This document shows, piece after piece, positions 44,118-47,262 of a stretch of 47,262 bases of DNA. The stretch covers positions 1 through 47,262 of the forward strand of contig WSYG01000015.1 of NCBI GenBank assembly GCA_009773735.1, written 5' to 3'. Below the pieces are notes generated by a model. The model was not told the DNA's origin and did no database searches. It saw only the letters and a program-made list of their open reading frames with translations. The position numbers and the translations under genes were made by a program. Source of the DNA: Erysipelotrichaceae bacterium. Its GTDB lineage: Bacteria; Bacillota_I; Bacilli_A; Erysipelotrichales; Erysipelotrichaceae. How positions within the stretch are numbered: position 1 is the stretch's first letter; every line of letters begins with the position of its first letter.

Positions 44118-44141
44118 AAATCATCCTATTTGGATGATTTT
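44117..44141. terminator. Bidirectional terminator
   Basis: AAAATCATCC-TATTT-GGATGATTTT lies between the converging HD remnant and pflA, whose stop codon TAG is in the loop. T tracts flank on both strands. Confidence 0.85.
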
Positions 44142-44869
44142 ATATTCTCGATAAGATCGATCAGTTGAGCTTGCCACTGTAGTCCTTTTGTTAGAGACAT
44201 GGCTGGAGTGTCCCCTAATGGATATTCAATTTCCATAAGCTCGTATTTTGATTTACCTAATGTATGATAAGGCAAGATCTCGATTTTATCTACATATTTT
44301 AGTTTTGCGATACGTTGAGCTGTTGCGAGTAGATTGACTTGGTTGTCATTGAGTCCAGGAACCATAACTTGTCTGATCCAAAGTGGGGTTCCAATACTTT
44401 GAGCCAACTCAAGAAACTTCTCTGTCACATCCATTTTCTGCGATGTGATTTTCTTATACAGGTCTTCCTGGGCCGCTTTCAAATCATAGATGATCAAATC
44501 AGTCGCCTTGATGATTTCTGGTAATAAAGGTGATAATGAAAAACCTGATGTATCAAGTGCTGTATGGATACCTGCTGCTTTCAAAGCCAAAAGACACTCT
44601 AGAAGAAATTCAGGTTGATTCAAAGGTTCTCCACCACTAAACGTAACACCCCCATGTTGGCCATAATATGGCTTATTTCTTAATGCTAACTCTGTGATTT
44701 CTTGGGCACTTAAACGATTCCCAATTTGTGCTTGCCAAGTCTCAGGGTTATGACAATACACGCATCTTAAAGGACATCCCGAAAGAAAGATGATCGAGCG
44801 AATGCCTGGTCCATCAAAGGTCCCAAAGGGTTCAATTTTACTGATATAACCAAGTCTAGATGGATTCAT
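44126..44869 (-). CDS. pflA: Pyruvate formate-lyase activating enzyme
   Basis: PflA is a radical-SAM enzyme that abstracts hydrogen from the essential glycine of PflB. In the 247-residue protein the cluster Cys residues are C32, C36 and C39 in [13 protein letters not shown], preceded by [14 protein letters not shown] as in the family. The [10 protein letters not shown] glycine-rich block (SAM binding) and [12 protein letters not shown] follow. Its start overlaps the end of pflB by 14 bases, so the activator is translationally coupled to its target. Length and motifs are normal. Confidence 0.97.
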
Positions 44870-47081
44870 GGAAGGTCCTGTTGAGCACTTCCAATTGCTG
44901 AGCTCTTGTCAAACGATGGAAGTGGACCGCATAACCAGAAACACGGATTGTAAGATTAGGATAAAGCTCAGGATGATCCATGGCTTTTTGTAAGACTTCT
45001 CTTGAATAGACATTCACGTTTAAATGATGTGCTTTTTGTTTAAAGTAACCTTCAAGGATTGAAACTGTATTTATGACACGTTCTTGTTGAGTCTTACCTA
45101 AAGTTTCAGGTAAGATCGAGAATGTATTTGATACCCCGTCTTGGCAAATATCCCCATATGGAATTTTTGCGACAGAGTTTAGGGATGCTAGGGCACCGCT
45201 TTGATCACGTCCATGCATTGGATTAGCACCAGGCGCAAATGGTTCACCTTTTTGACGACCATCTGGTGTATTGCCTGTCTTTAATCCATAAACCACATTG
45301 GATGTGATGGTTAGAATCGATAAAGTATGAACTGCATTACGATGTAGAGGATGTTCTTTCAGCATGTTTGAAAACATGGTGACTACTTCAACTGCGAGAT
45401 CATCCACTCGATCATCATCATTGCCGAATTTTGGATAATCTCCTTCGATTTTGAAGTCGATCGCAATCCCTAATTCATTACGAATAGGTCTTACTTTCGC
45501 ATATTTTATGGCAGATAATGAATCTGCTACAACAGATAATCCTGCAGCCCCAAACGCCATCAAACGTGTGACGTGAGTGTCATGTAAGGCAAACATACTT
45601 TTCTCATAGGCGTATTTATCATGCATATAATGGATGATGTTCATTGTATCGACATAGAGTGCAGATACTTTCTTAAGGGTCAATGTATAAAGATCCATAA
45701 CTTTATCAAAATCAAGGACTTCATCTGTGATCACAGGGATTCCGTCAATGATCTTTTCTTGGTAGATTTCATCATATCCACCATTGATCGCATACAACAA
45801 TGCTTTTGCCAAATTGGTTCTAGCGCCAAAGTATTGGATCTGTTTTCCAACTTCCATCGCAGAGACACAACATGCGATCGCATAGTCATTGCGATATAAA
45901 GGAGACATCAAGTCGTCATTCTCATATTGAATGGCTCCTGTCTCAATCGACATTTTGGCACAGTATTGTTTAAAGGCTTCTGGTAGTTTTTCGGACCATA
46001 AAATGGTCATATTGGGTTCAGGAGCAGCACCGATGTTGGTGAGAGAATGTAGATATCTAAAGGATGTTTTTGTAACCAAAGGTTTCCCATTGGAGGCAAT
46101 ACCACCGATGGATTCTGTGACCCAAGTTGGATCACCCGCAAACAATTCATCGTATTCTGGTGAACGTAAATGACGAACCAAACGTAACTTAATGATGAAC
46201 TGATCGATCAAATCTTGAGCTTGCATTTCTGTGATCAGACCTAATTGGAGATCGCGTTCAATATAAATATCTAAGAATGATGAAGTGCGTCCTAAAGACA
46301 TCGCAGCCCCATTGTTTTCTTTAACTGCTGCTAAGTAGGCAAAATATAACCACTGTACAGCTTCTTGAGCGTTTGTGGCAGGTTTTGAGATATCAAAGCC
46401 ATAAGATGAAGCCATTTTGATCATGTCTTTTAAAGCACGGATTTGATCGCTGACTTCTTCTCTGAGTTGAATCGTTGTATCATTGATTTCTGTGATTTGA
46501 TTGAAATCCTTTTTCTTTGATTCAATTAACGCATCTACTCCATATAGAGCAACTCTACGATAATCCCCAATGATTCTTCCTCGTCCATATGCATCTGGTA
46601 ATCCTGTTAATAATCCTGTATGACGAGCTTTCTTCATCTCTGGTGTATAGGCATCAAAAACACCTTGATTGTGTGTCTTTGAGTAATCATTAAAGAACTT
46701 ATAAAATTCAGGTTTCATTTTACGTCCATAAACTTCCAGAATTTTAGACGCTAGATTAATACCACCATAAGGATTAATGATGCGCTTAAGTGGAGCATCT
46801 GTTTGTAGTCCCACGATTGATTCCTGATCTTTTAAAATGTACCCAGGTTTAAAATTATTGACACCAGATACGGCATCCATCTCAATATCTAAAACTCCGA
46901 GTTTTTGTTCTTGTTTAAGAAGTTCTACACATTTATCCCAGACGGCTTTTGTATCATCTGAAATCGATGATAGAAACTGGTCATCTCCTTCATACGTGCT
47001 AAAGTTTTGGTTGATGAAATCTTCAACGTTGATTTCTTGTTGCCATAAACCTGATTTGAATGAATCCCATGTTTTGTGCAT
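44856..47081 (-). CDS. pflB: Formate acetyltransferase (pyruvate formate-lyase)
   Basis: PflB splits pyruvate with CoA to acetyl-CoA and formate, a core anaerobic fermentation step. The 741-residue protein has the catalytic Cys pair C404-C405 ([11 protein letters not shown]) and the glycyl-radical site at G716 (RVSGYAVHF), both as in E. coli PflB, and ends in RTFHESI. AGGAGG precedes ATG 47081. It is cotranscribed with pflA. A CRP/FNR-family site upstream suggests anaerobic control. The radical is destroyed by oxygen, so the host is expected to ferment without oxygen. Confidence 0.98.
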
Positions 47082-47097
47082 AAGTGCCTCCTGAATG

Positions 47098-47147
47098 CTT
47101 GATTATTTTATCATGCTCTTCATGTATATGATGTGACTTTAATCACA
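47098..47147 (-). promoter_or_regulatory. pflB promoter with FNR/CRP-family site
   Basis: On the minus strand TGTGA-TTAAAG-TCACA (47132-47147) is a perfect five-base inverted repeat with six-base spacing. The -10 hexamer TAAAAT lies at 47105-47110, and exactly 29 bases separate the site centre from it. This puts the centre at -41.5, the classical position of activating FNR or CRP sites. The transcript would start near 47098, leaving a 17-base leader with AGGAGG. Confidence 0.82.
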
Positions 47148-47253
47148 TTTTTACCACTAATATGACTAAAGCGCTTTCATGTTTCATAATTAACAATCAT
47201 TTATAATGAATCACAATTCACGATATAATAGGAATAACGAAACAGGAGCATCT

Positions 47254-47262
47254 ATGCGAAGA
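47254..47262 (+). CDS. Start of an unidentified gene (cut by window edge)
   Basis: Only ATG CGA AGA is visible. Support for a real start: AGGAG eight bases upstream and TATAAT at 47224-47229. The product cannot be identified. It is divergent from pflB, with about 170 bases between. Confidence 0.5.

Follow-up and report, generated by a model that had tools for sequence, protein, structure and literature searches.

The pyruvate formate-lyase operon (pflBA) of this Erysipelotrichaceae bacterium is preceded by a perfect CRP/FNR-type operator centred at a predicted -41.5, and comparison with related sequences confirms that the operator is real and conserved beyond neutral expectation. We consider it very likely that the site is read by an FNR-type protein whose gene lies on contig 7 of this genome, and likely that this protein activates pflBA in the window species. 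The full picture, in which an FNR-type protein senses O2 through an O2-labile cluster and acts on pflBA as a class II activator, is one that we hold to be fairly probable. The window is the whole stretch of 47,262 nucleotides analysed here, contig 77 of the almost complete, 1.94 Mb genome G000. The features of the pflB promoter region and operon, in positions of the whole stretch, are as follows.

47132..47147, minus strand: CRP/FNR-type operator TGTGATTAAAGTCACA, an exact match centred on 47139.5, which is -41.5 relative to the predicted pflB transcript start
47105..47113, minus strand: extended -10 TGATAAAAT, hexamer TAAAAT at 47110-47105, read directly, without a -35
47098, minus strand: predicted pflBA transcript start, inferred as 7 bases past the -10 hexamer
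47087..47092, minus strand: pflB ribosome-binding sequence AGGAGG, read directly
44856..47081, minus strand: pflB, pyruvate formate-lyase (TIGR01255; 1147 bits, cut-off 994)
44126..44869, minus strand: pflA, pyruvate formate-lyase activating enzyme (TIGR02493; 245 bits, cut-off 232)
47166..47179, minus strand: cre-like element TGAAAGCGCTTTAG, core AAGCGCTT at 47169-47176, about -74.5

The palindrome TGTGA-N6-TCACA is the operator consensus of Bacillus Fnr. The initial annotation had described a perfect copy of it upstream of pflB, centred 29 bases before TAAAAT and at -41.5, and these positions are borne out: the 16-mer at 47132-47147 has 0 mismatches, 29 bases lie between the centre at 47139.5 and the hexamer, and the sequence gives -41.5 when the predicted +1 is taken at 47098. 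Read towards pflB, the minus strand is aaaaATGTGATTAAAGTCACATcatatacatgaagagcaTGATAAAATaatcaagcattcAGGAGGcacttATG, in which the operator (47147-47132) is followed by 21 bases and then by TAAAAT (47110-47105). A TG at 47113-47112 makes this an extended -10, and a sigma-70 scan of the minus strand found no -35/-10 pair for pflB. The combination of a poor -35 with a good or extended -10, which characterizes class II promoters, is therefore present at pflB. The core of the cre-like element is kept, at 89.5-91.5 bp upstream of the pflB start, in G000 and in the congeners G001, G002, G004, G005 and G007, and CcpA may add catabolite control of pflBA through it. A search against Rfam found no RNA element. 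Between the cre-like element and a divergent gene, the minus strand at 47179-47196 reads TTGTTAATTATGAAACAT, a weak Rex-like sequence with 3 mismatches that did not turn up in the congeners. At 47200-47262 there is a divergent promoter-like pair (TTTATA, 18, TATAAT) together with the first codons of a gene truncated by the contig end.

We asked how much of this arrangement could be expected from the motif itself. Perfect bare palindromes number three in G000, as do matches to a reversed control pattern, so the palindrome is not over-represented and proves nothing on its own. Dinucleotide shuffles gave a perfect copy no more than 150 bp from pflB in only 0.06% of cases. Of the three perfect palindromes, two are in promoters, one at pflB and the other behind a CRP/FNR gene, and both stand 21 bases from a -10-like hexamer. 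The third copy (C18) is located inside an ArsR-family gene and was rejected as an operator.

Neither the shuffle frequency nor the shared spacing is what chance would give, and the same holds for the conservation of the site. Among named genomes the closest pflB sequences are those of Erysipelothrix species (71-72% identical), and pflB is present in six congeners. The pflB genes of G001 and G002 share about 81% DNA identity and 89% protein identity with that of G000, and 53-57% of their fourfold sites have changed. Against this background, the block AATGTGATTAAAGTCACATCATAT holding the operator is identical at 24 of 24 bases in G000, G001 and G002, whereas only 5 of the next 15 bases in G001 and G002 agree with G000. 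The distance from operator to TAAAAT is exactly 21 bases in all three, and the extended -10 is kept as TGGTAAAAT in G001 and G002. G006, which sits on a long branch whose placement at the base of the genus the tree does not resolve, has the perfect variant TGTGACGTACGTCACA followed by 21 bases and TACACT, a spacing as in G000. We also considered whether the operator serves the divergent gene at the window end. The farther-upstream sequence of G001 and G002 is unrelated to the window's divergent promoter and yet the operator is kept, indicating that it belongs to pflB.

The initial annotation had predicted that a CRP/FNR-family gene would be found elsewhere in the genome, and G000 contains two, on contigs 7 and 51. 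The first is the candidate reader of the pflB site:

G000:C7:12595-13263: FNR-type regulator gene, CRP/FNR family

Its product matches PF00027 and PF13545 above cut-off. Apart from its orthologue, no PF00027 gene was detected in G001, G002 and G006 (completeness 98%, 79% and 79%, respectively), all of which have the pflB site. Eight orthologues, with identity down to 33%, all keep the four cysteines C4, C7, C12 and C110. In alignment, C4, C7 and C110 correspond to C20, C23 and C122 of E. coli FNR, and C12 is matched to C29 by motif position rather than by alignment column. The N-terminal motif is CX2CX4C, with a loop one residue shorter than the CX2CX5C of E. coli FNR; in G014, from another genus, it is CX2CX9C. 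We counted both departures against the assignment. The window-species protein has no cysteine after C110 and ends soon after the helix-turn-helix. Its recognition helix reads SSREAISR (VSRESVNR in other species), an R-E-x3-R pattern as in CRP, where R180, E181 and R185 read TGTGA. The best-scoring model for the protein is NF008365 (NCBIfam Fnr), at 51 bits against a curated cut-off of 228, and we therefore do not file it as an E. coli Fnr orthologue. A structure model has the CRP/FNR fold, with Foldseek matches to CRP and A. fischeri FNR that do not separate FNR from CRP. In a phylum sample of 295 genomes, after discarding several rows for which the wrong reading frame had been taken (bit scores under 20), most relatives are FLP-like, carrying one N-terminal cysteine beside VPIF, and three-cysteine forms are few. 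In G004 and G005 a one-mismatch site lies just ahead of the regulator gene.

A second operator accompanies the regulator gene. A further copy of the motif at -41.5 had been anticipated, and a perfect one occurs directly behind the contig-7 gene. In six genomes (G000, G002, G004, G005, G006 and G007) the stop codon of the regulator runs into or falls just before TGTGAY-N4-RTCAC[A/T], followed after 20-21 bases (21 in G000) by a -10-like hexamer and then by the beginning of a DUF438/hemerythrin/PAS gene. In G004, G005, G006 and G007 the regulator's TGA stop codon lies within the operator. In G001 the DUF438/hemerythrin/PAS gene is not next to the regulator gene, and in G014 a small gene that looks like DUF1858 stands between the two. 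The DUF438/hemerythrin/PAS protein is encoded at L001:1563-2717 directly behind the FNR-type gene, and the neighbours of the regulator gene in the other genomes were read from L119-L124.

Both target operators share a feature absent from the original pattern: position 6 is a pyrimidine and position 11 a purine. The refined motif, TGTGAY-N4-RTCACA, has only two perfect copies in G000, those in the pflB and DUF438/hemerythrin promoters, and 21 of its 22 one-mismatch copies lie within reading frames. The remaining one, 60 bp before a ribD-like gene, lacks the -41.5 spacing and was set aside. For G001/G000, one-mismatch copies number 24 against 8 in the reversed control, but we set this excess aside as evidence because the control pattern differs in dinucleotide make-up. 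From the two perfect copies and the placement of the one-mismatch copies in reading frames, the regulon appears to be very small, at least as far as strong sites are concerned.

These observations suggest the following mechanism. The contig-7 protein would hold an O2-labile [4Fe-4S] cluster on Cys4, Cys7, Cys12 and Cys110. When oxygen is absent, its dimer would bind TGTGAY-N4-RTCACA and, at -41.5, would lie next to RNA polymerase on a promoter with an extended -10 and no usable -35. It would recruit the polymerase to pflBA by class II activation, and pyruvate formate-lyase would thus be produced in the absence of oxygen. From the same -41.5 position, the protein probably also activates the DUF438/hemerythrin/PAS gene.

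The pflB operator does not occupy this position throughout the genus. The -41.5 spacing is common to G000, G001, G002 and G006, whereas in G004, G005 and G007 the palindrome at pflB ends four bases before the extended -10, which puts its centre at -24.5. An FNR located between -35 and -10 is considered unable to activate (PMC7349173), and because the operator at -24.5 overlaps the core promoter, repression is expected in these three congeners. The initial annotation had proposed direct activation of pflBA by a CRP/FNR-family protein, and those of its refuting conditions that sequence can address did not refute it. Conservation backs a function at pflB, but activation is not to be assumed genus-wide. 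The tree does not resolve the base of the genus; since the G000 group and G006 share -41.5, the shift probably arose in the group of G004, G005 and G007. The -24.5 position reflects either a mispredicted promoter, a change in the sign of the regulator, or a DNA-binding form that is not simply anaerobic. In G014, a perfect pflB site lies at about -90.5. We counted both this placement and the -24.5 sites against the reading of the regulator as an O2-sensing class II activator.

The alternative that survives best keeps the contig-7 protein as reader of the site and makes it an FLP-like thiol/disulfide, NO or metal switch, acting with either sign according to operator position. Fe-S binding is deduced from the cysteines alone, the relatives in the phylum sample are for the most part FLP-like and carry fewer N-terminal cysteines, and the conserved hemerythrin-domain neighbour would fit an NO or oxidative signal as well. 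A site at -24.5 should block polymerase (PMC7349173), which is odd, in three congeners, for a protein whose DNA binding requires the absence of oxygen. However, the four cysteines, three N-terminal and one central, remain invariant in the eight orthologues although identity drops as low as 33%, and four is the number expected for cluster ligands and more than a disulfide needs. We regard such a switch as unlikely, and prefer the O2-sensing FNR-type protein.

A different regulator could also read the palindrome, and we counted the presence in G000 of Rex and of the second CRP/FNR protein (contig 51) against the contig-7 reading. Rex, an NADH-sensing repressor with a single gene in G000 (contig 73), would repress pflBA at low NADH, as at S. 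aureus pflB. We considered it because the TGTGA-N6-TCACA core forms part of the S. aureus Rex box, TTGTGAA-N4-TTCACAA, and the region upstream of pflB is a binding target of Rex in that species (PMC2883068), giving a similar palindromic core at the same target operon; the -24.5 operators of the three congeners also resemble repressor sites. However, neither this pattern nor TTGTTAA-N4-TTAACAA is found at the pflB site of G000, which has 4 mismatches to the Rex box, its outer T/A and inner A/T all differing. The exact Rex boxes of several congeners are located elsewhere, before genes that, judged by their translations alone, resemble hydrogenase or other redox genes. The Y6/R11 constraint is common to the pflB operator and the one downstream of the regulator gene, but not to Rex boxes. 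We rejected Rex as the reader, and consider it quite improbable in that role.

Still less probable is a reading by the contig-51 protein, which has an FLP-like cysteine set and is encoded beside a metal-transport P-type ATPase gene: it is present in G000 and has counterparts in G004, G005 and G007, but none was detected in G001, G002 and G006, which retain the pflB site, and its recognition helix, MSQETLSR, is without the arginine that CRP uses for TGTGA. On these two grounds we rejected it. That the pflB palindrome is a chance occurrence without function, as the equal genome-wide counts of perfect palindromes and control matches would allow, is the least credible reading of all, given a block and an exact spacing kept against a strongly diverged background and the matching operator that follows the regulator gene in six genomes.

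Two further observations concern CRP/FNR genes. The second, FLP-like CRP/FNR gene (L004:1378-2073) directly follows the gene of the metal-transport P-type ATPase and is itself followed by one for an MFS transporter. Beside a third CRP/FNR gene, G004 (C55:26152-26194) and G005 (C13:81633-81675) carry TGTGAGAAATCTCATA and TGTGAGATATCTCATA, respectively, with 21 bases and a TATAAT-like hexamer; this is perhaps the own operator of that third protein.

Taken as the reader of the pflB site, the contig-7 protein combines features of several known systems. With E. coli FNR it shares the set of three N-terminal cysteines and one central cysteine, and the pflB promoter resembles E. coli FNR class II promoters (for example cld, PMC7349173) in its -41.5 spacing, extended -10, poor or absent -35 and anaerobic gene. 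It differs from E. coli FNR in its CRP-like R-E-x3-R helix, in having CX2CX4C rather than CX2CX5C, in its Bacillota host and in apparently having two targets only; the TTGAT half-site (TTGAT-N4-ATCAA) of E. coli FNR is not found at the operator, whose conserved form is TGTGAY-N4-RTCACA. Bacillus Fnr is alike in its TGTGA-N6-TCACA operator, its Bacillota host and its link to anaerobic metabolism, but its cluster is held by C-terminal cysteines plus an aspartate (PMC3520743), and the contig-7 protein lacks the C-terminal cysteine motif. Thus, although the site does match the Bacillus Fnr consensus invoked by the initial annotation, the likely regulator, with its N-terminal and central cysteines and CRP-like helix, is not of the Bacillus Fnr kind. 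FLP/ArcR-type CRP/FNR proteins of Gram-positives have the same fold and cysteines at the N-terminus and the C110 position; FLP-like relatives mostly have one N-terminal cysteine and an ETLSR or ETFSR helix, in contrast to the three cysteines and SREAISR of the contig-7 protein.

According to a 2026 structural review, the cluster of Fe-S FNR proteins is N-terminal in Gram-negatives and C-terminal in Gram-positives (PMC12937710), and the contig-7 protein, as judged from its cysteines, would be an exception to this split. In the literature searched we found no Erysipelotrichales regulator, operator or pair of targets of this kind; the present analysis names a regulator, its operator and two targets for the order. 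The operator that has moved 17 bp relative to the -10 also offers a natural test of how the sign of a regulator changes. Tentatively, and with more doubt than confidence, we suggest a Bacillota FNR with a Gram-negative-type N-terminal cluster, CRP-type DNA recognition and a tiny regulon (pflBA and the DUF438/hemerythrin gene), whose pflB operator has moved within the genus from -41.5 into the core promoter at -24.5, so that a protein activating the operon in some species would repress it in others. If this is true, the sensor and DNA-reading halves of FNR proteins can be combined in other ways.
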